Part shown: positions 24,458 to 49,485 of the stretch, piece after piece
Layout: each line of letters opens with the position of its first letter
Position numbering within the stretch: position 1 is the first letter of the stretch
Notes under the pieces: generated by a model
Databases searched by the model: none
What the model was told of the DNA's origin: nothing
The model's input: the letters and a program-made list of their open reading frames with translations, nothing else
Origin: Amycolatopsis umgeniensis
GTDB taxonomy: Bacteria; Actinomycetota; Actinomycetes; Mycobacteriales; Pseudonocardiaceae
Length of the DNA stretch: 64,000 bases
NCBI RefSeq assembly: GCF_014205155.1
Contig: NZ_JACHMX010000001.1
Coordinates: 8,742,001 to 8,806,000, forward strand
Reading direction: 5' to 3'
Position numbers and translations under genes: made by a program

Positions 24458-25546
24458 TCAGGAAGCCGGTTTGACCTCGGTCTTCGGGTCGCCGTCGACC
24501 GCGGCGGTGAGCTGCGGGACGATCCGGTCGACCACGTACGGCACGCTCAGCACGGTCACGAAGGAGACAGCGCTGCCGTAGGTTCCTTCGTTCTCGACGA
24601 AGATCTCACGCTTTTCCTTCGCCACCTTCAGGCCGGTGTAGAGGGCGTCCTTGCCGAGGATCTCCTGCGCCTTCGCCGGGGTGTCGATGAGCCACACGAG
24701 CGCGTCGCGGTCGAGCAGGTCGGTCCGTTCGGCGCTGATGCTCTTGCCGAACTTGTCGCCGATCGCGGCGTCGAGGTCGGCGGGCAGCTTGAAGCCGAGG
24801 GATTCGAGGATGCGCGAGCGCGGGTCCTGGCTGCCGTAGACGAAGTAGCCCTCGTAGGTCGAGGCCATCAGGGCCGACTTGCCCGCGAATTCCGGGTGCT
24901 CCTTGCGGACCTGGGCGAACTTGTCCTCGACGCCCTTGACCAGCTCGTTGGCCTTGGTCGCGCGCCCGACGGCCTGGCCGACCTTCTTGGTCGCCTCCTG
25001 CCACGGGATGCCGTAGTCGTTGTACTCCTTGGGCTGCGCGACGACCGGGACGCCGATCTGGCCCAGCTTGTCGTACTGCTCCTTGGTGAGGCCGGAGTAC
25101 AGCGCGATGATCAGATCCGGCTTGAGCGCGGCGATCTTCTCGTACTGCGGACCGTCGACGTCCTTGAGGACCTCGGGCAGCGCGGCGCCGCCGAGTTTGT
25201 CGGTCGCCCACGGGGCGATGGTGCCGGGGAACTTGCCGAGCCACTCGGTGACGCCGACCGGGACCACGCCGAGGGCGAGCAGCGCGTCCTGTTCGGTCAG
25301 CCCGACCGTGACGACGCGCTTGGGCTCCTGGGTGATGGTGGTGCTGCCGTACTTGTGCTCGATCGTGGTCGGGAACGCGTTCGCGTCGACCGCCGAGCCC
25401 GCGGAGTTCTGCGCGGCCGGGTTGGCCGACTCGCCGCCACCTCCGCACGCGGTGAGCGAGGCGGCCAGCACCAGGGTGGACGCCAGCACGCCGGCGGTCT
25501 TCAGGCGCCCCCGCGCGGCGGAGAGGGTGGGGATTCGGGCCATCAT
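24458..25546 (-). CDS. Iron-siderophore-binding lipoprotein (ABC transporter)
   Basis: This 362-residue substrate-binding protein should capture the ferric siderophore outside the membrane. It has a Sec/lipoprotein leader with lipobox LTAC at about residues 31-34, followed by a Gly-rich linker. The mature part follows the FepB/FhuD-type fold: TIEHKYGSTTITQEPKRVVTVG, then YEKIAALKPDLIIALYSG, and a C-terminal VDRIVPQL. Two adjacent ATG codons are available (25546 and 25543). An iron box lies 49 bp upstream. It is transcribed alone, away from the exporter-like ABC genes, and converges on the NRPS operon. It is the likely partner of the two FecCD permeases at 29.2-31.3 kb. Confidence 0.92.
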   Translation of the reverse strand: MMARIPTLSAARGRLKTAGVLASTLVLAASLTACGGGGESANPAAQNSAGSAVDANAFPTTIEHKYGSTTITQEPKRVVTVGLTEQDALLALGVVPVGVTEWLGKFPGTIAPWATDKLGGAALPEVLKDVDGPQYEKIAALKPDLIIALYSGLTKEQYDKLGQIGVPVVAQPKEYNDYGIPWQEATKKVGQAVGRATKANELVKGVEDKFAQVRKEHPEFAGKSALMASTYEGYFVYGSQDPRSRILESLGFKLPADLDAAIGDKFGKSISAERTDLLDRDALVWLIDTPAKAQEILGKDALYTGLKVAKEKREIFVENEGTYGSAVSFVTVLSVPYVVDRIVPQLTAAVDGDPKTEVKPAS

Positions 25547-25594
25547 CCGTCCTTCTTGATCGGCAATCCGGCGAAATGCCGGATTAATCGAAAT

Positions 25595-25613
25595 TCAGGT
25601 TTGGCTAACCTAA
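25595..25613. promoter_or_regulatory. Iron box upstream of the siderophore-binding protein
   Basis: Read on the minus strand, these 19 bases match 16 of 19 positions of the palindromic iron-box form TTAGGTTAGGCTAACCTAA. This is the best match in the window. It sits 49-67 bp before the ATG of the binding-protein gene, a typical place for repression by DmdR/IdeR. Confidence 0.8.
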
Positions 25614-25656
25614 GACGCTGACCGTCCGATTGCAACCGGCGGCGCTGCGTCCCGGG

Positions 25657-27414
25657 TCACGTCCGTGAACGGTTGTCCGACCAGGCCGCCCAAAGCGTTG
25701 CGTACTGACCACCGGAGGCCACGAGTTCGTCGTGCGTCCCGCTTTCGACGACCACGCCCGCGTCGAGCACGACGACGCGATCCGAGGCAGCCGCCTGCGT
25801 CAACCGGTGCGCGACGACGAGACCGGTCCTGCCTTCGAGCGCGGCCGCCGCGGCGGCTTCGAGGGTCTTCGCGCCCGCGCTCCCGGCCTCGGCGGTGGCC
25901 TCGTCGAGGATCGCGATCGGCGGGTTCGCGAGGACCAGTCTTGCCAGCGCCAGCTGCTGGGATTGGGTGACCGTCAGCTGGTGCCCGCCCTCGCCGACCA
26001 CGGTCGCCAGACCGTCGCCCAGCGCCTCTGCCCAGCCGCGCGCGCCGACTTTGTCCAGTGCCGCCAACAGTTCCGTGTCGGACGCGTCGGGCCGGGCCAG
26101 CCGGAGGTCGTCCGACAGCGAACCGGCGAACACGTGCACCTCCTGGCTGATCAGCGCGACAGCCTGCCGGGTGGCGGACGGCCCGAGTTCGTCGAGCGGG
26201 ACCCCGCCGACGGACACCGTGCCCGAGCCCGGGGTGTGGATCCCGGCGATCAGCTTGGCCAGCGTCGTCTTCCCGGCGCCGCTCGCGCCGACCAGCGCGA
26301 CCCGCTCACCGGGTGCGAGACTCAGGTCGACGTCGCGCAGCACCGGGTGTCCGTCCACATAGGAGTGGAAGATCCCGGCAGCCTTCACCGACGCGTCAAC
26401 GGGTTTCGCGGGCCGCTCGGGCTCGCGCGGCGCGGGGAGGTCGGCGACGCCGATCAGCCGGGCGAGGCTCGCGGCGGCCGCCTGCGCGTCGTCCACCAGC
26501 GCGAGCGCGGTGTTGATCGGGCCGAACAGGCTGTGGAAGTACAACGCCGCCGCGGTCGCCGCGCCGATGGTCACCGCGTCGGCGCCCACCAGCAGGAAAC
26601 CGGCCGCGAGCACGGCCGAGAGGCCGACGAACTCGGCGAGGTTGAGCCGGGCGAAGAACGTCGTCATCAGCCGGACACCGCGCAGCATCAGCTCCATCGC
26701 GCCTTCGGACCGCTGCCGGACCCGCTCCACGTGGGCGTCGGCGAGACGGAACGCGCGGACGGTCTTCGCGCCGCCGATCGTGTCGAGTAGTTGCTGCTGT
26801 TGCGATCCCGTCGCGATCCGCTGCTTCGCGTACAACGGGACGGCGTTGCGGACGTACCAGCGCACAGTGTGCAGCTGGATCGGCGTCGCCAGCAGCGCGG
26901 CCAGGAGGAACCGCCAGTCGAGGACGGCGAGGGCGCCGAGCGTCAGCACGATGGTGAGCGCCGAGCGGCCCAGTTCGGGCAAGGCGTCGCGCACCGCCCT
27001 CGCGACCACCGTGACGTCGTTGGTGACCCGCGCGGTCAGGTCGCCGGAACCCGCGCGTTCGACCTGCTCGAGCGGGAGGCTCAGTGCCCTGTCGACGAAC
27101 CTTTCGCGCAGTTCCGCCAGCAAAGTCTCGCCGAGCCTCGCGGTCAGCGAGACACCCAGCGCCGTCGCGATCGCCTGGGCGATGGCGACCAGGACCAGCG
27201 CCACCACCGGGGTGGTCAGTTCGGTCGCGGGGCGTTTCTCGATGACGAGATCGACGATGTGGCCGAGCAGCCGAGCGGTGAGCAGCCCGATCGCGGTCGC
27301 GCCGACGAGCATCAGGAGCGCTCCGGCGGCCCGGGCTTTCGAGGTGCGGAGCAGTTCGCCGAGGACCGCGCGGATCCGCTTGCCGTCCGCGGTCGGGAGG
27401 AGTTCGCGGGTCAT
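25657..27414 (-). CDS. ABC half-transporter (permease-ATPase), catalytic-site subunit
   Basis: This 585-residue protein has an N-terminal six-helix ABC type-IV membrane domain (about 1-310) and a C-terminal ATPase domain. Walker A GASGAGKTT lies near 375. Walker B AILDEATAE near 502 keeps the catalytic Glu. The signature motif near 478 reads LTVTQ instead of LSGGQ. The partner gene upstream has the opposite defects, so together they make one complete ATP site. The two genes overlap by 4 bp and share an iron-box promoter. The role is siderophore export or, as for IrtAB and YbtPQ, import through an exporter fold; sequence alone does not decide. Confidence 0.88.
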   Translation of the reverse strand: MTRELLPTADGKRIRAVLGELLRTSKARAAGALLMLVGATAIGLLTARLLGHIVDLVIEKRPATELTTPVVALVLVAIAQAIATALGVSLTARLGETLLAELRERFVDRALSLPLEQVERAGSGDLTARVTNDVTVVARAVRDALPELGRSALTIVLTLGALAVLDWRFLLAALLATPIQLHTVRWYVRNAVPLYAKQRIATGSQQQQLLDTIGGAKTVRAFRLADAHVERVRQRSEGAMELMLRGVRLMTTFFARLNLAEFVGLSAVLAAGFLLVGADAVTIGAATAAALYFHSLFGPINTALALVDDAQAAAASLARLIGVADLPAPREPERPAKPVDASVKAAGIFHSYVDGHPVLRDVDLSLAPGERVALVGASGAGKTTLAKLIAGIHTPGSGTVSVGGVPLDELGPSATRQAVALISQEVHVFAGSLSDDLRLARPDASDTELLAALDKVGARGWAEALGDGLATVVGEGGHQLTVTQSQQLALARLVLANPPIAILDEATAEAGSAGAKTLEAAAAAALEGRTGLVVAHRLTQAAASDRVVVLDAGVVVESGTHDELVASGGQYATLWAAWSDNRSRT

Positions 27415-29087
27415 GACAGCACCGCCGCGCGGTAGTCGGCGCGATCGCGCGCGAGGTCGGCGTGGCCGCCTTCACCCGTGACCCGGCCGCCGTCGAGGAC
27501 GACGACGCGGTCGGCGACGGCGAGGAGGGCGGGACTCGTGGTTACCAGGATCGTGGTCCGTCCTTGTCGTAGCCGGGCGAGTCCGGTGGCGATCTTCGCC
27601 TCGGTCACGGTGTCGACCGCCGTCGTCGGATCGTGGACGACGAGCACCGGCGCGTCCGCGGCGAGGGCGCGGGCGAGGGCGACGCGCTGCCGCTGGCCGC
27701 CGGAAAGGGAACGCCCGCGTTCGGTGACCGCGGTCGCGGTGCCGTCCGGCAACGCCGCCGCGACCTCGTCCGCCGCCGACGCGGCCAGTGCCTCGTCCGG
27801 GGCGGTGCCCACGTTCTCCGCCAGCGTTCCTTCGAACAGGTCCGCGTCGTGCGCGGCGACCAGGACGACTTCGCGGACACGTTCGGGGTCCACAGTGGAC
27901 AGATCGACGCCGTCGACGTGGACCTTGCCCCCGGTGGGATCACCCGCCCTGCCGAGGCAATCGAGCAGGTCGGTCGCGGCGGCCGGATCGGTGGCGACGA
28001 CACCGACCAGCTGCCCGGAGGGGATCTCGAGGTCGACTCCGCGGAGGCTGCCGTACGAGACGTCGGTGAACCGGACGTTCCCGGCGGCGGGGGAGGGGAG
28101 TTCGCCATCGCCCGCCCCGACCACCGTCGGCGTGGTCAGCAGATCGGCGACCCGGGACGCCGATGCGCGGCCCTGAGCCAGTTCGCCGTTGACCCACGCG
28201 AAGATCAGGAACGGGGTGAGCAGGAACTGGGCGAGCCCGACCGCCGCGACGAGTTCGCCGACGCTGATCGAACCCGACGACGCGAGGTGCCCGCCGACGA
28301 GGGCGACGATCGCGATGAAGATCCCGGTCAGCGCGAGTACGGCGCCGTCGTGCCAGGCCTTGGCCCGCGCGGCGCGCAGGGTTGCCCTGAGCGAGTTCTG
28401 ACTCGTGTCGCGGTAGCGGGCGACGGCGGCGGGTTCGGCGCCGATGCCCTTGAGCACCCGCAGGCCGGACACCAGATCCGTGGCGACGCCCGAAGCGTGC
28501 GCGGACCGTTCCTGTTCGGCTTCGCTGCGGCGCTCCAGCGGTTTGCCGATGAGATGCGCGAGGTACAGCAGCGGCGGCGTGCCCAGGAGGACGAGGAGGC
28601 CCAGCGGCAGCGAGATGCGCAGCAGCGCGACGGCGCTGACCAGGACCCCGGCGAGCGCGGCGATCCCGAACGGCAGCGCCGCGTTCACGACCCCGACCCG
28701 TTGCGCGTCACTGGTGCCGATGTTGACCAGTTCGCCGGCCAGCTTGCCGCTTTCGGCACCGCCACCGGGATGCAGGACGCGTCTGCTGATCGCGAGGCGG
28801 ATGTCGTGCGCCGCCCGGAGCGAGGCGCCCTCGGCCGCGCGCGCGGCGAACCGGTAGCTATAGGACAGCGCCGCGAAGACCACGCCGAGTACGGCGAGCC
28901 AGAACACGAGCGTGCCCACCGAGCGGCCGGCGACGGCCTGGTCGATCACCACGCCGATGATCACCGGGACGAGTGCTTCGCCGCCTTGATGGCACGCGGC
29001 GAGCACGGATGCGAGCGTGACTTGTCGTCGCTGCCCGGAAATCGCCTGGCGCAGGACGCTCCGGCTGGTGGTGGCCGTTGCGGACAC
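27411..29087 (-). CDS. ABC half-transporter, degenerate-site subunit
   Basis: This 558-residue permease-ATPase is the first gene of the leftward iron-regulated transporter operon. The membrane domain covers about 1-310. In the ATPase domain the Walker A position near 360 reads GVVATDPAAATDL and lacks the Lys-Thr pair. Walker B near 485 reads VLVVHDPTTAVD, with Pro in place of the catalytic Glu. The signature LSGGQRQRV near 465 is intact. It therefore cannot hydrolyse ATP at its own Walker site but can complete the site of its partner (25657-27414). There is no siderophore-interaction domain like that of mycobacterial IrtA. It starts near an iron box at 29108. Confidence 0.88.
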   Translation of the reverse strand: MSATATTSRSVLRQAISGQRRQVTLASVLAACHQGGEALVPVIIGVVIDQAVAGRSVGTLVFWLAVLGVVFAALSYSYRFAARAAEGASLRAAHDIRLAISRRVLHPGGGAESGKLAGELVNIGTSDAQRVGVVNAALPFGIAALAGVLVSAVALLRISLPLGLLVLLGTPPLLYLAHLIGKPLERRSEAEQERSAHASGVATDLVSGLRVLKGIGAEPAAVARYRDTSQNSLRATLRAARAKAWHDGAVLALTGIFIAIVALVGGHLASSGSISVGELVAAVGLAQFLLTPFLIFAWVNGELAQGRASASRVADLLTTPTVVGAGDGELPSPAAGNVRFTDVSYGSLRGVDLEIPSGQLVGVVATDPAAATDLLDCLGRAGDPTGGKVHVDGVDLSTVDPERVREVVLVAAHDADLFEGTLAENVGTAPDEALAASAADEVAAALPDGTATAVTERGRSLSGGQRQRVALARALAADAPVLVVHDPTTAVDTVTEAKIATGLARLRQGRTTILVTTSPALLAVADRVVVLDGGRVTGEGGHADLARDRADYRAAVLS

Positions 29088-38997: not shown

Positions 38998-39900
38998 ATG
39001 GCGCAACGGAAAGCGGTGGCCGCGATCGTCGGTCCCGGGAACATCGGAACCGACCTGCTCGCGAAGCTGAGGCGCAGCGACCACGTCGAGGTGCGGTACA
39101 TGGTCGGCGTGGATCCGGACTCGGACGGGTTGGCCAAGGCCGCCGAGCTGGGAGTGGAGACCTCCGCCGGGGGCGTCGACTGGCTGCTGTCCCGCGACGA
39201 GCTGCCGGACCTGGTCTTCGAAGCGACCTCGGCGAAGGCGCATCTGGCCAACGCGCCGCGCTACGCCACCGCCGGGATCCGCGCGATCGATCTGACCCCG
39301 GCCGCGGTCGGCCCGTTCACCTGCCCGGCGGTCGGCCTGCCCGAACGGCTGGACGTGCCGAACGTCAACCTCATCACCTGCGGCGGCCAGGCCACCATCC
39401 CGATCGTGCGAGCGGTGTCCCGGGTGACCCCGGTGCCCTACGCCGAGATCGTCGCGTCGGTCTCGTCGCGCTCGGCCGGACCCGGCACCCGGGCCAACAT
39501 CGACGAGTTCACCGCGACCACGGCGCGCGGGATCGAAATCGTCGGGGGAGCGAGCCGGGGCAAGGCGATCATCATCATCAATCCGGTCGAACCGCCGATG
39601 ATCATGCGCGACACGGTGTTCTGCGCGATCGACCCGGACGCGGACTTCGACGCGGTGACCGAATCCATCCACCGGATGGTCGAGACCGTGCAGGGGTACG
39701 TGCCGGGCTACACGCTCAAGGCGGATCCGCAGTACGACCCACCCCGGCAGGGCTGGAGCGGGCAGGCGAGGGTCGCGGTGTTCCTGGAGGTCGCCGGGAA
39801 CGGGGACTTCCTGCCGAAGTACGCCGGGAACCTCGACATCATGACGGCCGCGGCCGCCCGCGTCGGCGACCTGCTGGCCACTCAGGGGGTGGCGGCGTGA
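38998..39900 (+). CDS. Acetaldehyde dehydrogenase (acetylating)
   Basis: This 300-residue enzyme of the MhpF/BphJ/HsaG family oxidises acetaldehyde (or propanal) with NAD+ and CoA to the acyl-CoA. It shows the dinucleotide motif [11 protein letters not shown] near residue 11, the catalytic Cys in [10 protein letters not shown] near 125, [16 protein letters not shown] near 155, and [11 protein letters not shown] near 200. The length is normal. The next gene, the aldolase that feeds it, overlaps the stop by 4 bp (GTGA), fitting the channelled aldolase-dehydrogenase complex. The preceding hydratase of the pathway is missing here. Confidence 0.94.
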
Positions 39901-40931
39901 AGTGGGACGAGAGCGACCGCGCGGTCCGGCTCGTCGACACGAGCCTGCGCGACGGCAGCCACGCCATGGCGCACCAGTTCACCGAAAAGAACGTGCGCGA
40001 CACCGTCCGGGCGCTGGACGACGCCGGGGTGTCGCTGATCGAGGTCAGCCACGGCGACGGACTCGGCGGCTCGACGTTCAACTACGGCTTCTCCCTGGTC
40101 GACGAGCGGAAACTGATCGCCGCGGCGGTCGACGAGGCCCGTCACGCGAAGATCGCGGTGCTGCTCCTGCCGGGGCTCGGCACGGTCGGCGATCTGCGCG
40201 CGGCGGCCGACCTCGGCGCGGGCGCTGTCCGGATCGCGACACACTGCACCGAGGCCGACGTCTCCGTCCAGCATTTCGGCGCGGCTCGGGATCTCGGGCT
40301 GGAGACGGTCGGTTTCCTGATGCTGTCCCATATGTCCACGCCCGAAGCGCTGGCGAAACAGGGCCGGATCATGGTCGACGCCGGTTGCCAGTGCGTGTAC
40401 GTCGTCGACTCCGCGGGCGCGTTGATCCTGGAGGACGCGAGCGAACGCGTCGCCGCGCTGGTGGCGGAATTCGGGGACCAGGCGCAGGTCGGGTACCACG
40501 GGCACCAGAACCTGAGCTTCGGCGTCGCGAACTCGGTGCTCGCCTACCGCGCCGGCGCCCGCCAGATCGACGGCTCGCTCGTGGCGCTCGGCGCCGGTGC
40601 CGGCAACTCGCCGACCGAGGTCCTCGCGGCGACGTTCGAGCGGCTCGGGATCCGCACCGGCGTCGACAAGGACGTGCTGATGGACGCGGCCGAGAACGTC
40701 GTGAAGCCGTACATCACGCGGCTGCCGGTGATGGACCGGTCGTCGATCGTGCAGGGTTTCGCGGGCGTGTACTCGAGTTTCCTGCTGCACGCGGAGCGCG
40801 CCGCCGAACGCTACGACGTCCCGGCGCACGAGATCCTTTACCGCGTCGGCGCCGCGAAATACGTGGGCGGGCAGGAGGACATGATCATCGACATCGCCCT
40901 GCAGCTGGCCGCCGAACGGGATCAGGGCTGA
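39897..40931 (+). CDS. 4-hydroxy-2-oxovalerate (oxohexanoate) aldolase
   Basis: This 344-residue HMGL-like TIM-barrel aldolase of the MhpE/BphI/HsaF family splits 4-hydroxy-2-oxoacids into pyruvate and an aldehyde. It has [15 protein letters not shown] near residue 12 (metal and catalytic residues), [13 protein letters not shown] block [30 protein letters not shown] near 163, and the metal-binding [15 protein letters not shown] near 200. It is translationally coupled to the dehydrogenase. Its last 10 bp overlap the convergent TetR gene. Whether the pathway is aromatic or steroid degradation cannot be decided from these two genes. Confidence 0.94.
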
Positions 40932-41515
40932 CGGTCGGCGCCGAGCACGAGGCGGACGCAATGGTCGATCAGGCGCTCGCGGCTCACTTTGAGCGAGCCG
41001 TCGAGGTAGGCGATGAACACGTTGCTCAGCGCGCCGACCAGGCCGATCGACGTCATCTGCCGTTCGGCCGCGTCGCCGTGGGACAACTGCCCGCTGACCA
41101 GTTCCGCGAACGAGGGGAGGAGCGCGATCCCGCGGGTGGTCAGCGCGGGATCGGTGATCGGCGCGAGCAGGAGCACGCGGCCCTTGCGCGGGTCGTCGAG
41201 CATCAAGCCGACGAACGCGCGGACGGCGGCCTTCGCCCGTTCCGCGGGCTCGGCCGTATCGCTGACGGCGTCGACCAGGGCCTGCCGGGCCTGCTCGCCG
41301 ATGTGCTCGTAGACCGCGACGACCAGTTCCTCGCGGTCGGCGAAGCTCTCGTAGAAGTACCGCTCCGTCAGCTTGGCGTGACGGCACACCGCGCGGACGC
41401 TCACCCCGGCGCTGCCCTGGGTGCCGAGCAGGTCGAGGCCCGCGTCGACGAGTTGCTCCCGTCTCGCGGCCTTGCGGTCGTCCAGGGTCGTGCCTGCCCA
41501 GCTGCGGCCGGCCAT
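40922..41515 (-). CDS. TetR-family transcriptional regulator
   Basis: This 197-residue repressor has an N-terminal HTH ([44 protein letters not shown], about 21-64) and an all-helical ligand domain. It diverges from the MpaB-type oxygenase gene. The 90-bp gap holds two similar 20-bp palindromes, so it most likely represses both itself and the oxygenase/LLM operon. The ligand is unknown. Confidence 0.9.
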
Positions 41516-41530
41516 GATCGGCTCCTCTTG

Positions 41531-41550
41531 TTGACTACGGCCGTTGTCAA
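41531..41550. promoter_or_regulatory. Palindromic TetR operator, site 1
   Basis: This is a 20-bp inverted repeat with a single mismatched pair: TTGAC-x-ACGGCCGT-x-GTCAA. It lies 15 bp upstream of the TetR gene start, in the divergent promoter shared with the MpaB-type oxygenase. Confidence 0.7.
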
Positions 41551-41557
41551 CTTTAAC

Positions 41558-41577
41558 CTGACAACAGTTGTGGTCAA
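41558..41577. promoter_or_regulatory. Palindromic TetR operator, site 2
   Basis: A second, less perfect copy (CTGACAACAGTTGTGGTCAA) shares the outer TGAC...GTCA frame and the TTGT core with the site at 41531. It ends 28 bp before the ATG of the MpaB-type oxygenase. The two centres are 27 bp apart, allowing two repressor dimers to bind. Confidence 0.6.
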
Positions 41578-41605
41578 TTTAACCAGCTCATTGAGGAGAC
41601 CGGGG

Positions 41606-42526
41606 ATGACACAGCCGCGGCCGCTGGGACCGGATTCGCTGACCTGGAAGTACTTCGGCGACTGGCGTGGGCTGCTCATCGCGCTCTGGGCCGGATCCAT
41701 GCAGAACATGCACCCCGAGCTGGGCGCGGGGGTCGAGGAGCACTCGCGGTTCTTCGAGGAGCGCTGGCAGCGGCTGTTCCGCTCGTTGTACCCGATCGGG
41801 GGAGTGATCTACGACGGCCCGCGCGCTCGGCAGACGGCGCTGGAGGTGCGCGGTTACCACGACCGGATCAAGGGCGTGGACAAGCAGGGGCGGCGCTATC
41901 ACGCGCTCAACCCGGACACCTTCTACTGGGCGCACTCGACGTTCTTCATGAGCGCGATCCTCATCGCCGACAACTTCGTCGGCGGCATCGGCGAGGCCGA
42001 GAAGCGGAAGCTGTTCGACGAGCACGTGCAGTGGTACGAGATGTACGGCATGAGCATGCGCCCGGTGCCGGAGTCTTGGGAGGACTTCCAGCTGTACTGG
42101 AAGCGCATGTGCGAGGACGTCCTGGAGGACAACAAGGCCACGCGCGACGTCCTCGACATCAAAGACCTCCCGAAACCGCATTTCCTGCCTTGGCTGCCGG
42201 ATTTCGCGTGGAAGCTGGTGCGCGGGCAGGTCGCGCGGAACTTCGTCTGGCTGACCGTCGGGTTGTACGACCCGCCGATCCGCGAGCGGCTCGGGTACAC
42301 CTGGACCGAACGCGACGAGCGTCGGCACCGGCGGATCGGGAAACTGATCAACGCGGCGTTCAAGCTGGTTCCGCGGGACCGTCGCTACCACCCGCGCGCC
42401 AGGGCGGGCTGGCGCCGGGAGCGTGGCGAACTGGCCACGGACGCGCCCTTGGTCGAGACTCCCGCGAGGAACCTTCCGCCGCTTTCGGAGCGGGGCAAAC
42501 CCGAGCACTACTCGCCGAACGTCTGA
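41606..42526 (+). CDS. MpaB-type oxygenase (DUF2236)
   Basis: This 306-residue protein of the DUF2236 family includes the heme-dependent latex-clearing rubber oxygenase and MpaB proteins. Family features are WKYFGDWRGLLIALWAGSMQ near the start, RTVY-like blocks replaced by QTALEVRGYHDRIKGVDKQGRRYHALNPDTFYWAHSTFF (about 75-115), and the YEMYGMSMRPVP segment. The histidines in the YHALN and WAHST parts are the expected heme or metal ligands. The ATG at 41606 has GAGGAG upstream. It is followed 12 bp later by an LLM oxidoreductase under the same TetR control. The substrate is unknown. Confidence 0.85.
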   Translation: MTQPRPLGPDSLTWKYFGDWRGLLIALWAGSMQNMHPELGAGVEEHSRFFEERWQRLFRSLYPIGGVIYDGPRARQTALEVRGYHDRIKGVDKQGRRYHALNPDTFYWAHSTFFMSAILIADNFVGGIGEAEKRKLFDEHVQWYEMYGMSMRPVPESWEDFQLYWKRMCEDVLEDNKATRDVLDIKDLPKPHFLPWLPDFAWKLVRGQVARNFVWLTVGLYDPPIRERLGYTWTERDERRHRRIGKLINAAFKLVPRDRRYHPRARAGWRRERGELATDAPLVETPARNLPPLSERGKPEHYSPNV

Positions 42527-42538
42527 TTAGGAGCCTCG

Positions 42539-43564
42539 ATGAAGCTGGGTTACCACCTCGGTTACTGGTCCTCCGGCCCGCCCGAGGGCGCGCTGGACGC
42601 GGTGCTGAAGGCCGAAGAGCTCGGCTTCGATTCCGTGTGGACCGCCGAGGGCTACGGTTCGGACGCCTTCACCCCGCTCGCCTGGTGGGGCGCGTCGACC
42701 AGCCGGATCAAGCTCGGCACCAACATCGTCCAGATGTCGGCGCGCACCCCGACCGCGACGGCCATGCACGCGCTGACCCTGGACCATCTGTCCGGCGGCC
42801 GGTTCGTACTAGGGCTCGGCGCGTCCGGGCCGCAGGTGGTCGAGGGCTGGTACGGGCAGCCCTATCCGAAGCCGCTGGCCCGCACCCGCGAGTACGTCGA
42901 CATCGTGCGGAAGGTCGTCGCGCGTGAGGCGCCGGTGACCCATGACGGGCAGCACTTCCAGTTGCCGCTGCAGGGCGGAACGGGGCTCGGCAAGGCGCTG
43001 AAGTCCACAGTGCACCCGTTCCGCAAGGAGATCCCGATCTTCCTCGCCGCCGAGGGGCCGAAGAACGTGGCGCTGTCGGCGGAGATCTGCGACGGCTGGC
43101 TCCCGCTGTTCTTCTCGCCCAAGAGCGACGACTTCTACCGGACGGCGCTGCAGGAGGGCTTCTCGCGCCCCGGCGCCAGGCACGGTTTCGACGATTTCGA
43201 GGTCGCCGCGTCCGTCCCGGTGCTCGTCCACGACGACGTCGAGGAGGCCGCGAGCTGGATCAAACCGTCGCTGGCGCTCTACATCGGCGGTATGGGCGCG
43301 AAATCGGTCAACTTCCATCACGACGTGTTCGCCAGGATGGGGTACGAGGACGTCGCGGACAAGGTCCAGGAGCTGTACCTGGCCGGTCGCAAGGACGAGG
43401 CGGTTGCCGCGATCCCGACGTCGCTGGTCGAGGACACGTCGCTGATCGGGCCCGCGGAAAAGATCCGTGACGAGCTCGCCGCCTGGGAGGAGACCGTGGT
43501 GACCACGCTGCTCCTGCGGGGCGATGCCGCCACGCTCGCGAAGGTCGCGGAGACCCTTTCGTAG
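42539..43564 (+). CDS. LLM-class F420-dependent oxidoreductase
   Basis: This 341-residue luciferase-like TIM barrel begins MKLGYHLGYWSSGPP. Typical blocks are AEELGFDSVWTAEGYGSDAFTPLAWWGA, IKLGTNIVQMSARTPTATAMHALTLDHLSGGRFVLGLGASGPQVVEGWYG and IFLAAEGPKNVALSAEICDGWLP, which match the F420-dependent (Mer-like) actinobacterial branch rather than FMN enzymes. An AGGAG lies upstream of the ATG. It is in an operon with the MpaB-type oxygenase, so the two may act on one substrate. Which reaction it catalyses cannot be told. Confidence 0.87.
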   Translation: MKLGYHLGYWSSGPPEGALDAVLKAEELGFDSVWTAEGYGSDAFTPLAWWGASTSRIKLGTNIVQMSARTPTATAMHALTLDHLSGGRFVLGLGASGPQVVEGWYGQPYPKPLARTREYVDIVRKVVAREAPVTHDGQHFQLPLQGGTGLGKALKSTVHPFRKEIPIFLAAEGPKNVALSAEICDGWLPLFFSPKSDDFYRTALQEGFSRPGARHGFDDFEVAASVPVLVHDDVEEAASWIKPSLALYIGGMGAKSVNFHHDVFARMGYEDVADKVQELYLAGRKDEAVAAIPTSLVEDTSLIGPAEKIRDELAAWEETVVTTLLLRGDAATLAKVAETLS

Positions 43565-43666: not shown

Positions 43667-43695
43667 TTGCGACGGTGAGCCCCATCACGTAGCGT
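43667..43695 (+). promoter_or_regulatory. Candidate sigma-70-type promoter of the sphingolipid operon
   Basis: TTGCGA (43667-43672) and TAGCGT (43690-43695) are separated by exactly 17 bp, which suits the principal actinobacterial sigma factor. The -10 element directly abuts the long palindrome at 43696, which would cover the transcription start. Confidence 0.55.
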
Positions 43696-43736
43696 CCCGG
43701 CCACGAACATGAAGTCGGTTCATGTTCGTGGCCGGG
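43696..43736. promoter_or_regulatory. Perfect 41-bp palindrome (operator or leader hairpin) before the ceramidase gene
   Basis: Two 18-bp arms (43696-43713 and 43719-43736) are perfect inverted repeats around a five-base GTCGG centre; the inner half-site reads CACGAACATGAA. It lies between the -10 element and the Shine-Dalgarno sequence of the ceramidase gene, whose ATG is 11 bp further. It fits a repressor operator at the transcription start. As RNA it would form a very stable hairpin touching the ribosome-binding site GGGAGG (43734-43739). Confidence 0.75.
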
Positions 43737-43747
43737 AGGTGCTACTC

Positions 43748-45772
43748 ATGGCGGTGAGCCGGAGGCGGGTTCTTGCGGGTGCGGCGGCCTTGCCGGTCGC
43801 GGCCGGCGTGCTCGGCACGACGAGCGCACAGGCGGCGCAAACCGGGGCCCAGCAGGGTTTCCGCGTCGGCGTCGGCATCTCCGACGTCACCGGTCCCGCC
43901 GCCGAGAACGGCATGATGGGCTACTCGATGCCGCAGCAGCAGACCGCCGGCATCCATCTCCGCACCCGGGCACGGGCCTTCGTGGTCGACGACGGCGCCA
44001 AGCGGATCGCGTTCGTGACGGCCGATCTCGGTGCGCTGTTCCAGTCCGTCCATCAGGGCGTGATGCGCAAGCTCAAAGCCGCGTACGGCGAGCTCTACTC
44101 CGAGCAGAACGTGCTCCTCAACGCGACGCACACCCACTCCGCGTGCGGCGGCGATTCCCACTACGCCGCCTACGATCTGGCGATCCTCGGGTTCCAGCAG
44201 GAGGTCTACGACGCTGTCGTCGACGGGATCTTCGAGGCCATCAGCCGGGCGCACGCGAGCCTCGCGCCCGGGTCCATCCGGCTCGGCCGCGCGGAACTGA
44301 CCAAGGCGAGCGTCAACCGCTCCCGCAAGGCCTTCGACCTGAACCCGAAGGCGGACAAGGACCACTTCCCGCAGGCGATCGACCCGGCCGTCACGGTGCT
44401 GCGGTTCAGCCAGAACGGCGCCGACGTCGGCGCGATCAGCTGGTTCGCCACGCACGGGACGTCGATGAGCAACGGCAACCACCTGATCAGCGGCGACAAC
44501 AAGGGGTACGCCGCCTACGAGTGGGAGCACGACCACGCCGGCGTGCGCTACCTCGACGGGAATCCGCGGTTCGTCGCCGCGTTCCCGCAGACCAACACCG
44601 GCGACATGAGCCCGAACCTGAACCTGACGCCGGGAACGCCGGAGACGGAGTTCGAGAACACCCGCACCATCGGCGACCTCCAGTTCCGCGCGGCGAAGAG
44701 CGCTTTCGACGCGGCCGCCGAAGCCGTGACCGGCGGCGTCGACCACCGGATGTGCTACGTCGACATGTCCGACGTCGAGGTCGACGCGAAGTACACGCCG
44801 AACGGACGGCCGCAGCACACCTGCACCGCCGCGATCGGGGTGTCGATGCTGGCGGGAAGCCGCGAGGACGGCCCCGGCCTGCCGCTCCCGGAAGGCGTGA
44901 AGAACCCGTTCATCGACTGGCTCGGCGGCATCGACGCGCCGATCCCGCAGGCGCTCGCCGACGCGCAGGCGCCGAAGGTGGTCGCCGTCCCGTTCGGCGC
45001 GATGAAGCCGTACCCGTGGACGCCGGAGGTCCTGCCGCTGCAGATCGTCCGGATCGGACAGCTGCACCTCGTGGCCGTGCCCGCCGAGCTGACGATCGTC
45101 TCCGGGCTGCGCCTGCGCCGCACCGTCGCCGCCGAACTCGGCGTCCCGCTGGAGAACGTGCTCGTCCAGGGCTACTCCAACGCCTACAGCCAATACGTCA
45201 CCACGCCCGAGGAGTACGACTCGCAGCAGTACGAAGGCGCGTCGACCCTCTACGGCCGGTACACGCTTCCCGCGTACCAGCAGGAATTCGCCAAGCTCGC
45301 GGCCGCGATGAAGGCAGGCAGGCCGGTGCCGCACGGGCCGACGCCGCGCGATCTGCGCGGCAAGCTGATCAACTTCCAGCCCGGGGTCGTCTTCGACAGC
45401 GCGCCCGCGTTCAAGTCCTTCGGCGACGTCTTGGCCGACGCGAAGAGCACCTATGCGCGCGGCGAACAGGTCGCCGTCGAATTCGTCACCGGACATCCGA
45501 AGAACGACCTCCGGCGCGGCGGCACGTTCCTCGAGATCCAGCGGCTCGTCGACGGCAAGTGGGTCCGCCACGCCGACGACGGAGACTGGGACACCAAGTA
45601 TCACTGGGCGCGGACTTTCGTCGCCGAATCGAAAGCCGTCGTCCACTGGAAGATCCCCGCGAACGCCCCGATCGGCAAATACCGCGTGGTCCACTTCGGC
45701 AACTGGAAGAACGGCTGGAACGGGACGATCTCCGCGTTCAGCGGGACTTCCCGGACGTTCGTCGTCTCCTGA
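43748..45772 (+). CDS. Secreted neutral/alkaline ceramidase
   Basis: This 674-residue enzyme cleaves ceramide into sphingosine and a fatty acid. The ATG at 43748 starts a Tat-type signal (SRRRVLAG, then a hydrophobic stretch to SAQA). An upstream in-frame ATG at 43709 lies inside a palindrome and lacks a ribosome-binding site. Family motifs are VGISDVTGPAAENGMMGYSMP, the Zn ligand region NATHTHSACGG, the nucleophile region GDMSPNLNL (Ser in the D-M-S block, near residue 290), and a late PEEYDSQQYEGASTLYG. The C-terminal beta-sandwich is present, so the protein is full length. Next comes a sphingomyelinase-like gene 17 bp later in the same operon. Confidence 0.92.
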   Translation: MAVSRRRVLAGAAALPVAAGVLGTTSAQAAQTGAQQGFRVGVGISDVTGPAAENGMMGYSMPQQQTAGIHLRTRARAFVVDDGAKRIAFVTADLGALFQSVHQGVMRKLKAAYGELYSEQNVLLNATHTHSACGGDSHYAAYDLAILGFQQEVYDAVVDGIFEAISRAHASLAPGSIRLGRAELTKASVNRSRKAFDLNPKADKDHFPQAIDPAVTVLRFSQNGADVGAISWFATHGTSMSNGNHLISGDNKGYAAYEWEHDHAGVRYLDGNPRFVAAFPQTNTGDMSPNLNLTPGTPETEFENTRTIGDLQFRAAKSAFDAAAEAVTGGVDHRMCYVDMSDVEVDAKYTPNGRPQHTCTAAIGVSMLAGSREDGPGLPLPEGVKNPFIDWLGGIDAPIPQALADAQAPKVVAVPFGAMKPYPWTPEVLPLQIVRIGQLHLVAVPAELTIVSGLRLRRTVAAELGVPLENVLVQGYSNAYSQYVTTPEEYDSQQYEGASTLYGRYTLPAYQQEFAKLAAAMKAGRPVPHGPTPRDLRGKLINFQPGVVFDSAPAFKSFGDVLADAKSTYARGEQVAVEFVTGHPKNDLRRGGTFLEIQRLVDGKWVRHADDGDWDTKYHWARTFVAESKAVVHWKIPANAPIGKYRVVHFGNWKNGWNGTISAFSGTSRTFVVS

Positions 45773-45789
45773 CACCGGAAGGGTCTTTC

Positions 45790-46749
45790 GTGCGGAAGCT
45801 CGCCCTACTCGCCATCGCCGCCGCCATGTTCGCCGGAACCGCGGTCCCCGCCCAAGCCGCCGTCTCGGTGAAGGTCATGGCCTTCAACATCTGGCAGCTG
45901 CCGTGGATCGCCAGCCCGAACACCTCGGACAAGCAGGCGAGGGCCCGCGCGGCCGAGGCCGTCATCCGCGCGAACGACGCCGACGTCGTCGTCCTGGACG
46001 AGGCGTTCAGCGCGCAGGCGGAGGAAATGCGGAACCGGCTGAAGGACGTCTGGCCGCACCAGACGCCACTCGTCGGCCAGTACTGCAAGACCTCGCCGGG
46101 CTGGACCACGGTGAACGGGAACTGCTCGAATTCCCCGATCGTGGTCAACGGCGGGGTCACCGTGCTGAGCAAGGCGCCGGTGACCGAACAGCACCAGCTG
46201 GTCTTCCGCAATTCCTACTCGGGTACGGCGGACTACCTGTCCAACAAGGGCGCCGCGCTCGCCCGGCTGGTCGTGAACGGCAAGCCGCTCTGGATCGCGG
46301 GCACCCACATGCAGGCCGACGAGGGACCGGAGACGCTGCCGAAGGCGCACGGGATCCGGATGGCGCAACTCGGCGAGATCCGGGACCTGGTCACGAAATA
46401 CGCGCCCGCGGGCGAGCCGGTCGTGATCGCCGGCGATCTGAACATCGAGTACTGGGCGGGACAGGGGCGCAAGGACGGCTCCGGCCGGACCCAGGTCCAG
46501 CAGGGTGAAGCCGCCCTCGACGGGGTCCTCCGCACGACCGGCGAAGGCGCGTACACCTTCGACGCGGCGACGAACCCGAACGCCGCGAAGTCCGTTCCGG
46601 CGACCTACCGCGACTCGCTGGACTACGTCGGCGCCGTGCGCGCGGGCGGCCGTCCACTCGCCGCTGTCGGCCCGGTACAGCTCGTGCATTACGACGGTGG
46701 CACGATTCCCTCCGACCACTACCCGGTGGTGGCCAAGATCCAATACTGA
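45790..46749 (+). CDS. Secreted sphingomyelin phosphodiesterase-like enzyme
   Basis: This 319-residue protein has a Sec signal peptide (about 1-23, ending PAQA) and belongs to the endonuclease/exonuclease/phosphatase (DNase I-like) fold. Motifs in order: VMAFNIWQLPW (Asn metal ligand), DVVVLDEAF (Glu/Asp position), WIAGTHMQADEG (catalytic His), IAGDLNIEYW (Asp/Asn) and IPSDHYPVVAKI (Asp-His pair). The GTHMQAD block and overall size resemble bacterial sphingomyelinase C, which releases ceramide. The GTG at 45790 has GGAAGGG upstream. Being next to a ceramidase strengthens the call. A phospholipase C or nuclease of the same fold is the alternative. Confidence 0.83.
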   Translation: MRKLALLAIAAAMFAGTAVPAQAAVSVKVMAFNIWQLPWIASPNTSDKQARARAAEAVIRANDADVVVLDEAFSAQAEEMRNRLKDVWPHQTPLVGQYCKTSPGWTTVNGNCSNSPIVVNGGVTVLSKAPVTEQHQLVFRNSYSGTADYLSNKGAALARLVVNGKPLWIAGTHMQADEGPETLPKAHGIRMAQLGEIRDLVTKYAPAGEPVVIAGDLNIEYWAGQGRKDGSGRTQVQQGEAALDGVLRTTGEGAYTFDAATNPNAAKSVPATYRDSLDYVGAVRAGGRPLAAVGPVQLVHYDGGTIPSDHYPVVAKIQY

Positions 46750-46783
46750 GGCCTTCATCGGGAGAATCGCCTCGAGGAGGATC

Positions 46784-48088
46784 ATGGCATCGCTGCCAGC
46801 ACGGACGAGGTACCGCTACTCGCTCGGCTCGTTCGTCACCGGCCCGTTCGGCACGGTTCCCGGCCTGCTCCTCCTGAAGTACCTCACCGACACGATGGGC
46901 GTCGCGGCCGGCGTGGCGGGTTTGATCGTGTTCGTTCCCAAAGCCTGGGACGTGCTCTTCAACCCGATCGCGGGCAGGCTGTCGGACGCGGACATGGTCC
47001 GCACCGGCAGCCGCCGCCGGTTCCTGCTCTTCGGCGGCATCGGCGTCTCGATCCTCTTCGCGGCGCTGTTCGCGCACCCGGGCTTCGGCGGACCGGTGCC
47101 CGACGCGATCTACGTCGTCGTCGTGTTCCTGTTGTGCGCCACCGCGTACGCGTTCTTCCAAGTGCCGTTCAACGCGCTGCCCGCCGAACTGACGGACTCG
47201 GCCGAGGAACGCACCAAGCTGACCAGCATCCGGATCGGTTTCCTCGCGGTCGCCATCCTGATCTGCGGCGGCGGCGCGCCCGCGATCACCGAAGTCATCG
47301 GTGGCGTCGCGGGCTACCGCGTCATGGGCGTGTTCATCGCCGTGATCATCCTGCTCGCGACCCTCGGCGTGTACTTCGGACTGAAGGACGCCCCGGTCGG
47401 CGCGCTGCGGCCGAACACGGTGAGCCCGCGCGAACTGCTCCGGACGCTCGCGCAGTGGCGGCCGTTCCGCTGGCTGCTCGGGGTCTACTTCGTCCAGGCG
47501 CTCGGCATCGGCACGGTGCTGGCGGCGATCCCGTTCTTCGCCGAGCGGATCCTCGGCAGCTCCGGCTACTCGACGCTCCTGTTCGTCGGCTTCGTCGGCC
47601 CGGCGCTGCTGACCATGCCGCTGTGGCCCAAACTCGGCGCGAGCGTGGGGAAGCTGGCCGGGTTCCGGCTCGCCACCGCCGCGTTCGGTGTCGGTCTGTT
47701 CGGGCTGCTCGGCGCCAAGGTGTTCTCGTTGCCCGTCACGATGGTGTTCGTCGCCTTCTGCGGCGTCGGCTACGCGGGGATCTCGGTGTTCCCGCTGGCG
47801 ATCCTGCCGGATCTGATCAGCGACGAGGAGGAGCGGACCGGTGAGACCAGGGCCGGGGTCGCCGCCGGGGTGTGGACGGCGTCGGAGACGCTGGGGCTCG
47901 CGCTCGGCCCGGGTATCTGGGGGCTGGTGCTCCAATTCGGCGGCTACCAGTCCGGTCTCGACGCGAACACCGCGCAGCCGGACAGCGCGCTCACGGCGAT
48001 CCTGCTCGGCGCGTCGATCCTCCCGGCGGTGCTGATCCTGTTCGGTATCCCGCTGCTGAGGAAGTCCGTACTGGAGCGTCGGTCGTGA
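46784..48088 (+). CDS. MFS (GPH/MFSD2-like) transporter
   Basis: This 434-residue protein has about twelve membrane helices. The ATG at 46784 has GAGGAGG upstream. It shows the GPH-family block KAWDVLFNPIAGRLSDADMVRTGSRRRFLL between helices 2 and 3, and FFQVPFNALPAELTDSAEERTKLTSIR between helices 4 and 5. This family includes melibiose/glucuronide symporters and the animal lysolipid transporter MFSD2A. In this operon, between a sphingomyelinase and an S1P-lyase-like gene and overlapping the latter by 4 bp, uptake of sphingoid bases or lysosphingolipids is a reasonable inference. Sugar transport cannot be excluded. Confidence 0.85.
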   Translation: MASLPARTRYRYSLGSFVTGPFGTVPGLLLLKYLTDTMGVAAGVAGLIVFVPKAWDVLFNPIAGRLSDADMVRTGSRRRFLLFGGIGVSILFAALFAHPGFGGPVPDAIYVVVVFLLCATAYAFFQVPFNALPAELTDSAEERTKLTSIRIGFLAVAILICGGGAPAITEVIGGVAGYRVMGVFIAVIILLATLGVYFGLKDAPVGALRPNTVSPRELLRTLAQWRPFRWLLGVYFVQALGIGTVLAAIPFFAERILGSSGYSTLLFVGFVGPALLTMPLWPKLGASVGKLAGFRLATAAFGVGLFGLLGAKVFSLPVTMVFVAFCGVGYAGISVFPLAILPDLISDEEERTGETRAGVAAGVWTASETLGLALGPGIWGLVLQFGGYQSGLDANTAQPDSALTAILLGASILPAVLILFGIPLLRKSVLERRS

Positions 48089-49485
48089 CCGCCGAGGACG
48101 TCCTGCGGGAGCTCCGGGAACTGCGCGCGGGCGACCTGCCGACGCACGGCGGCCGCACCCTCGCTTATGTCTACGACAGCGGTCTGTCCGAAGTGGACGA
48201 ACTCGGCGCGGCGGCGCACGCGCTGGCGTCGTCGGCCAACGGTCTCGACCCGACGGCGTTCCCCAGCCTGTTGCGCATGGAGAACGACCTCGTCGGCACC
48301 GCGGCGCGGCTGCTGGGCGGCACGGCGGAGACGGTCGGTTCGGTGACCTCGGGCGGCACCGAGTCGTGCATGCTCGCCGTCCTGGCCGCCCGCGACGCGC
48401 GCCCGGACGTGGCGTCGCCGAGCATCGTGCTGCCCACGACCGCGCACGCCGCGTTCCACAAGGCGGCGCATTTCTTCGGTGTCCGCGTGGTTTCGGTGCC
48501 GGTCGACCCGGTGACCTTCCGCGCCGTTCCCGAGGCGATGGCCGCGGCGGTCGACGACACCACGGTGCTCGTCGTCGCGAGCGCGCCGTCCTACGCCCAC
48601 GGCGTCCTCGACCCGATCCCGGAGATCGCCGCGCAGCTGGACGGCGTCCGGTTCCATGTCGACGCCTGCATCGGCGGCTGGGTGCTGCCGTACCTGGAGC
48701 TCGGCCCCTTCGGCTTCGACGTCCCCGGTGTCACCAGCGTCTCGGTGGACCTGCACAAGTACGCCTACTGCCCGAAAGGCGTGTCGGTCCTCTTGCACGC
48801 CGACGCCGGACTGCGCCGGCCGCAGTACTTCGCCAGCGCCGACTGGCCCGGCTACACGATGCTGAACACCACACTCCAGAGCACTCGATCGGGTGGTCCG
48901 CTCGCGGCGGCGTGGGCGGTTGTGCGTCATGTCGGCGACGAGGGTTACGTGAAGCTGGCTTCGGCCGCGCGTGCGGCCGCCGTGGAGATCCGTGCCGGAA
49001 TCGAGGCACTGGAAGGACTACGCGTCCTCGGCGACCCGGTGTCGACCCTGCTCGCGTTCACCGTCGAGCCCGGTGCGGGGTTCGACCTGTTCACCGTCGC
49101 GGACGAGATGCGGGAGCGCGGCTGGTACGTCCAGCCCCAGTTCGCCCACGAAACTTCGCCCGCGAACCTGCACCTGACCGTGACGGCCGCGAATCGAGGG
49201 AGTGAAAATGAGTTCCTGGTCGATCTCGCCGCTTCGGTCGTGGCCGCTCGCGAGTCCGGCCCGGTCGTCGTCGACCCGCAGGTGGCGGAGTTCGTCGCCG
49301 CACTGGACCCCGCGACCTTGACTCCGGAGCAGTTCGCCGGACTGCTGGCAGCCGCCGGGCTCGGCGGCGACACGGGCCTGCCCACCCGGATGGCGGAGAT
49401 CAACGCCCTGCTGGCCGCGGCACCCGGTCCGTTGCGGGAACGGCTACTGCTGGAGTTCCTCGGCGCGTTGTACACGGCTTCCTGA
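48085..49485 (+). CDS. Sphingosine-1-phosphate-lyase-like PLP-dependent enzyme
   Basis: This 466-residue group II PLP decarboxylase-fold protein is closest in layout to sphingosine-1-phosphate lyase (Dpl1/SGPL1), which splits phosphorylated sphingoid bases into an aldehyde and phosphoethanolamine. It shows GSVTSGGTESCMLAVLAARD (phosphate cup, near 88), FHVDACIGGWVLPYLE (PLP Asp, near 190), and VDLHKYAYCPKGVSVLL near 225 with the Schiff-base Lys. The GTG start overlaps the MFS stop (GTGA). After about residue 385 it has an Ala/Leu-rich tail. No sphingoid kinase is encoded nearby, so the phosphorylated substrate must be made elsewhere or the substrate differs. Glutamate/tyrosine decarboxylase is the alternative. 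Confidence 0.83.
   Translation: MTAEDVLRELRELRAGDLPTHGGRTLAYVYDSGLSEVDELGAAAHALASSANGLDPTAFPSLLRMENDLVGTAARLLGGTAETVGSVTSGGTESCMLAVLAARDARPDVASPSIVLPTTAHAAFHKAAHFFGVRVVSVPVDPVTFRAVPEAMAAAVDDTTVLVVASAPSYAHGVLDPIPEIAAQLDGVRFHVDACIGGWVLPYLELGPFGFDVPGVTSVSVDLHKYAYCPKGVSVLLHADAGLRRPQYFASADWPGYTMLNTTLQSTRSGGPLAAAWAVVRHVGDEGYVKLASAARAAAVEIRAGIEALEGLRVLGDPVSTLLAFTVEPGAGFDLFTVADEMRERGWYVQPQFAHETSPANLHLTVTAANRGSENEFLVDLAASVVAARESGPVVVDPQVAEFVAALDPATLTPEQFAGLLAAAGLGGDTGLPTRMAEINALLAAAPGPLRERLLLEFLGALYTAS

Follow-up and report, generated by a model that had tools for sequence, protein, structure and literature searches.

A candidate two-layered sphingolipid-scavenging gene cluster in Amycolatopsis umgeniensis

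In this work we have analysed a 64,000-nucleotide stretch of the Amycolatopsis umgeniensis genome (contig NZ_JACHMX010000001.1, positions 8,742,001 to 8,806,000; hereafter the window), and in particular four plus-strand genes packed into its positions 43748-49485, which are separated by gaps of 17 nt and 34 nt and then overlap by 4 nt (GTGA). We consider it rather probable that these genes form a co-regulated unit for the scavenging of sphingolipids, assembled in two layers. In the secreted layer a phosphodiesterase would strip the head group from sphingomyelin or a similar phosphosphingolipid, and a ceramidase would split ceramide into a fatty acid and a sphingoid base. In the core layer a GPH-type transporter would move this base through the membrane, and an enzyme dependent on pyridoxal phosphate (PLP), with the fold of sphingosine-1-phosphate lyase (S1P lyase or SPL, EC 4.1.2.27), would cut the base between C2 and C3 in a retro-aldol reaction to a fatty aldehyde and ethanolamine; were a kinase to act beforehand, the second product would be phosphoethanolamine. 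We infer the substrates, the secretion, the direction of transport, the order of the steps and the regulation in this scheme. The four genes are as follows; the signal types were judged by eye from the termini.

43748-45772, plus strand: neutral ceramidase, 674 aa (PF04734/PF17048 and PDB match; twin-arginine-like start MAVSRRRVLAG)
45790-46749, plus strand: sphingomyelinase-C-like phosphodiesterase, 319 aa (GTG start; PF03372; Sec-like signal)
46784-48088, plus strand: GPH/MFS_2 transporter, 434 aa, distantly MFSD2/MelB-like (PF13347)
48085-49485, plus strand: SPL-fold PLP enzyme, 466 aa (PF00282; two substrate-phosphate contacts changed to Tyr28 and Asp55)

An earlier note, made from these nucleotides alone, had proposed the placement, spacing, order and family assignments of the four genes, and all of these are borne out by the coordinates of the open reading frames and by matches in Pfam, NCBIfam and the PDB, across which the family calls agree for every gene. 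The ceramidase contains both domains of its family (PF04734, E 1.3e-178; PF17048, E 4.3e-55). Its best solved relative is the neutral ceramidase 2zws (E 8.6e-188), which we take to be the Pseudomonas enzyme, and it shares with it the motifs THTHS, THGTSM, QTNTGDMSPN, PAELT and YSNAYSQYVTT, presumably the zinc and nucleophile/catalytic sites. It differs from 2zws in that its gene is clustered with three others, for phosphodiesterase, transporter and SPL-fold enzyme, and in that it falls below an equivalog cut-off, scoring 677 bits against the 1200 of NF041649 (NCBIfam); judged by these scores it belongs to the Pfam family and is not assignable to the equivalog. The phosphodiesterase matches PF03372 (E 1.6e-16), and its EEP domain carries the N, E, H, D-x-N and DH motifs, which we take to be the catalytic residues and which it has in common with bacterial sphingomyelinase C (1zwx, 7cne, 2ddr). 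Its best solved relative is 1zwx (E 3.7e-32), and all seven PDB sequences matched at E 0.001 are sphingomyelinases or beta-hemolysin. Despite this, its score with TIGR03395 (E 2e-36, 125.9 bits) lies under the equivalog cut-off of 248.2, and therefore "sphingomyelinase-like" seems to us the right strength of name.

More questions surround the last enzyme. Is it a sphingosine-1-phosphate lyase? It matches PF00282 (E 2.4e-16), the first 10 of its 30 PDB sequence matches are S1P lyases, and these outscore group II decarboxylases both in sequence and, with the exception of one partial chain, in fold. With the S1P lyases StSPL, human SGPL1, yeast Dpl1 and Burkholderia S1PL2021 it shares the whole-length fold, the PLP lysine, the His and Cys of the PLP sandwich and the PLP Asp. 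All 120 close homologues, like the window protein, have the PLP-binding residues G168, T169, H201, D274, C276, H310 and K311 unchanged; the protein departs from the S1P lyases in the eighth, S353 of the PLP cup, which is Thr, and in the pocket for the substrate phosphate. The roles of the contact residues are those of Table 3 of PMC6148460. Y105, N126 and K317 are kept in our enzyme and in all 120 close homologues, whereas two of the five published contacts are switched, Ala103 to Tyr (Tyr28) and His129 to Asp (Asp55), again in 120/120. At the same places 120 relatives of StSPL have Ala (118) or Gly (2) at 103 and His without exception at 129. In a tree made by a quick method the group forms a branch of its own. 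Since two of the contacts are changed, sphingosine 1-phosphate is not a safe call for the substrate, and from its residues we would place the enzyme in an SPL-fold subfamily and not assign it as an S1P lyase. The earlier description "sphingosine-1-phosphate-lyase-like" thus holds for the fold and the catalytic residues and fails at these two contacts. In the sources the subfamily goes under different names, decarboxylase, aminotransferase or sphinganine-1-phosphate aldolase; the closest named homologue, from A. azurea, is 94% identical.

The transporter matches PF13347 (E 1.2e-78; 265 bits against a gathering score of 27), lies below the cut-off of TIGR00792 (181.1 against 231.35) and resembles MFSD2A (E 4.7e-14) and MelB (E 1.7e-12) about equally. 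Like MelB, MFSD2A and MFSD2B it belongs to the MFS_2 family, and it keeps the Asp at the place of MelB Asp55 (MFSD2A Asp93), but the MelB sugar contacts K18, D19, D124 and W128, as given in PMC8329300, are replaced by T19, G20, Q126 and N130. In MFSD2A, Lys436 (Lys413 of MFSD2B) is linked to the phosphate head group of the lipid, according to PMC5862976; its place is T369 in our transporter, beside E368. Among 22 transporter homologues this place holds T in 20, K in one and V in one, and Glu368 is invariant in all 22. The epithet "lipid-compatible" given to the transporter earlier comes down to family resemblance, the phosphate lysine of MFSD2A being absent. The missing lysine and the changed enzyme pocket point in the same direction, towards a non-phosphorylated, positively charged base. 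Perhaps, then, the sphingoid base is cleaved unphosphorylated, which would make a kinase unnecessary. In eukaryotes phosphorylation of the base before cleavage is held to be required (PMC6148460).

The canonical route is the alternative which survives best, although we would give it somewhat less than even chances: imported sphingosine would be phosphorylated by a general lipid kinase, and the PLP enzyme would be an ordinary S1P lyase that tolerates Tyr and Asp. The three retained contacts agree with this, as do Thr and Gln at positions 103 and 129 in the BsS1PL column of the same Table 3 of PMC6148460, which we take to be an active Burkholderia enzyme. The genome also encodes four DAGK_cat proteins. 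However, the closest of them is some 130 kb away. Three have matches among general lipid-kinase models, only one of them over a cut-off (TIGR00147), the fourth has none, and DAGK_cat matches are uninformative because they are found in 13 of 14 control genomes as well. The four-gene cluster itself contains no lipid kinase, so the word "self-contained", used of it before this search, is not upheld. Furthermore, the negative Asp and the bulky Tyr are fixed among the close homologues. A search of the host for serine palmitoyltransferase gave three matches to a model related to alpha-oxoamine synthases, none over the cut-off.

We then come to the distribution of the genes, for which samples of 80 genomes from the genus, 120 from the family and 296 from the phylum were searched. 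A limited number of candidates was scored per genome, so that absences are soft, and some genomes contribute two loci each (for example L047/L181, L066/L114 and L076/L116; among the 39 ceramidase loci there are four such repeats). In the genus, 74 of 80 genomes have the PLP gene, 39 the ceramidase and 38 a phosphodiesterase homologue. Of the 39 genomes with a ceramidase, 35 have it no more than 6 kb from the PLP gene; the transporter was mapped in seven of these 35 (G000, G003, G004, G006, G013, G015, G019). In a further three (G020, G195, G177) the ceramidase, phosphodiesterase and transporter are kept and the PLP gene was not found there; in G199 the only ceramidase is a distant one (47% identity). 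No ceramidase match was found in 38 genus genomes with the PLP gene. Across 34 genomes the identities of the ceramidase and the PLP enzyme to the window proteins are correlated with r 0.987, which fits joint descent of the two. The earlier note knew of no such four-gene arrangement; any idea that it is unique to this genome must be rejected, as ceramidase, phosphodiesterase and PLP gene are clustered in 31 of the 80 genus genomes, the phosphodiesterase frame of two of them (G156, G173) being interrupted by a stop codon, and four more have the ceramidase and PLP gene without the phosphodiesterase. Ceramidase, transporter and PLP gene also occur together in another genus (G101, G148) and in two named Amycolatopsis records (L120, L122). 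Our literature searches, whose coverage left subscription journals mostly outside, found no paper on the arrangement. In one locus of another genus (L072, genome G056) a ceramidase (81%) and a phosphodiesterase (66%) stand together with neither transporter nor PLP gene nearby, as if they had moved as a pair.

The transporter and the PLP gene are more widely linked. In the family sample 40 genomes have the PLP gene, none of them without the transporter, which occurs alone in four others; in 37 of the 40 the genes are neighbours, as read by eye from the coordinates, the exceptions being G068, G115 and G154. Genes in other genomes were called with a simple GC-frame script which mis-frames some of them, and for this reason adjacency was recounted with tblastn (E 1e-10): the transporter is immediately upstream in 97 of the 115 loci collected for the PLP gene, a count that would miss very divergent transporters. 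The 18 others include distant relatives (L045, L046, L048-L050), Streptosporangiaceae and part of Streptomyces, and in one of them (L137) the transporter is 1.3 kb from the PLP gene. Nocardioides, Micromonospora, Streptomyces and a Nitriliruptoraceae bacterium are among the named PLP loci, which are the best 80 of the scan. The pair is the older core across Actinomycetota, and the secreted enzymes are a lineage add-on. In six loci (L079, L080, L081, L202, L203, L204) the transporter is retained and the PLP gene next to it is missing or, for L081, down to a match of 39 residues; judged from these, the transporter may also serve some purpose apart from the enzyme.

Does the pair exist for the products of the ceramidase? 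If so, the two should occur together, and several results here weigh against the pathway of the earlier note. Ceramidase and PLP gene coincide in 22 of the 120 family genomes (19.7 expected, p 0.24) and in three of the 296 phylum genomes (1.3 expected, p 0.13), and transporter and ceramidase in 26 family genomes (21.6 expected, p 0.07). With the 15 longest phylum matches, which like the overlaps were chosen by eye, p is 0.010 for ceramidase and PLP gene, and 0.062 without the window's own genome; coupling beyond chance is thus not clearly found. A ceramidase lies within 6 kb upstream of the PLP gene in only seven of the 115 loci. Elsewhere the 26 proteins neighbouring the pair (glycosidases, amidase, GGT, methyltransferase, UDG, LigB, aldehyde dehydrogenase, alpha/beta hydrolase and others) have no common theme, sphingolipid or other. 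It may be that the pair serves another amine or amino acid, the enzyme being a decarboxylase or a different aldolase, and that the ceramidase and phosphodiesterase are mere neighbours under a common promoter; we judge this unlikely, at perhaps one chance in a handful or slightly better. The weak association with ceramidase speaks for it, and so does the Asp at the 129 place, which six decarboxylase-like paralogues also have. On the other hand, K317 and C276 of our enzyme are the SPL states where these six have Pro and Ala, the S1P lyases outscore the decarboxylases as described above, and within the genus the ceramidase, where present, nearly always lies near the PLP gene or, in three genomes, near the transporter alone. 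According to a third idea the unit would serve for detoxification and not for nutrition: it would clear antibacterial sphingoid bases, and the transporter would work either outwards or inwards. This gains something from the six loci in which the transporter has outlived an intact PLP gene, and is improbable in our view, as a secreted ceramidase would itself generate the toxic base.

We return to the proposed sphingolipid-scavenging unit, and to its regulation. The gene upstream of the ceramidase encodes an F420-type oxidoreductase, and the 183 nt between the two contain the promoter-like pair TTGCGA-N17-TAGCGT followed by a dyad, neither of them mentioned in the earlier note:

43667-43672, plus strand: predicted -35-like hexamer TTGCGA, 17-nt spacer to the -10-like hexamer (25-row alignment)
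43690-43695, plus strand: predicted -10-like hexamer TAGCGT (25-row alignment)
43705-43727, plus strand: 23-bp dyad GAACATGAA-N5-TTCATGTTC, candidate operator, conserved in ceramidase loci

In the 25 aligned rows the first T and G of the -35-like hexamer are invariant and the second T is kept in at least 90%, and CGTA at 43688-43691, which covers the first two bases of the -10-like hexamer, is likewise invariant. The dyad matches once in the window (mean 0.00 expected from 100 shuffles). The patterns were drawn up after the sequences had been viewed; with the degenerate one, 37 of 39 scanned ceramidase loci match, that is 33 of at most 35 genomes given the four repeats. The misses are L056, which has an imperfect dyad at the same place, and L120. 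The exact core dyad occurs in 21 of 204 loci, every one of them ceramidase-bearing. Before the transporter in ceramidase-free loci no such dyad was seen among the palindromes listed for 53 rows, nor any exact match; the variant form TAACGCGAA was searched for in the 39 ceramidase loci only. As RNA the window's dyad region folds strongly, at -51.1 kcal/mol (z -6.83), but by eye L067 and L204 lack the pairing of the outer arms, and for this reason we prefer a DNA operator to an RNA hairpin. The cluster may thus have a repressible promoter of its own. The TetR encoded in the window is not its evident regulator, as a different inverted repeat, TTGAC..GTTGTCAA, is found at 41531-41577 (one copy at 41531-41550) between the divergent TetR gene (40922-41515) and mpaB; these repeats are possibly the TetR operator, distinct from the ceramidase dyad.

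We also hypothesize, more tentatively and with clear doubt, that the pair works widely in actinobacteria as a module for sphingoid bases that carry no phosphate, its importer lacking the lysine for a lipid phosphate and its SPL-fold aldolase having a Tyr-filled, Asp-negative pocket, so that the two together bypass sphingosine kinase, and that in Amycolatopsis it has been extended to a secreted-to-cytosol operon with its own promoter and operator. The sphBCD/SphR sphingosine regulon of Pseudomonas, as far as the accessible part of PMC11893366 describes it, is likewise a bacterial sphingosine metabolism and includes a predicted PLP-dependent aldolase, SphD; it differs in using a periplasmic oxidase and cytochrome c and in having no lyase-transporter pair. 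If our reading is true, soil actinomycetes take eukaryotic sphingolipids apart with a single gene set, and a sphingoid base may be cut without prior phosphorylation. There would then be a soluble enzyme from which to learn why S1P lyase demands phosphate, and a bacterial relative of MFSD2 for studies of sphingoid-base transport. Attention is also drawn to a PLP subfamily present in most genomes of the genus.

Some neighbouring features complete the picture. Directly upstream, at 38998-43564 (plus strand), are genes for acetaldehyde dehydrogenase, 4-hydroxy-2-oxovalerate aldolase, an mpaB-like oxygenase and an Rv3520c-type F420 oxidoreductase; in the window's lineage the pair follows this block with or without the ceramidase, and the block is kept upstream of the pair in many relatives. 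In ten Nocardioides loci (L129, L134-L136, L142, L145, L146, L154, L155, L178) a gene of an alpha/beta-hydrolase cluster stands just upstream of the transporter, possibly a counterpart of the ceramidase layer, and in several Nocardioidaceae loci an aldehyde dehydrogenase lies a few genes away. A scan of the window with Rfam at gathering thresholds and a tRNA search gave no match. Further away, the open reading frame at 1679-23938 (plus strand) encodes 7,419 aa, the first 3,000 residues of which comprise three condensation and three AMP-binding stretches with carrier domains, as in a non-ribosomal peptide synthetase; beside it, at 24458-29087 (minus strand), are a periplasmic binding protein and two ABC proteins, and from these domains the whole looks like a siderophore cluster.

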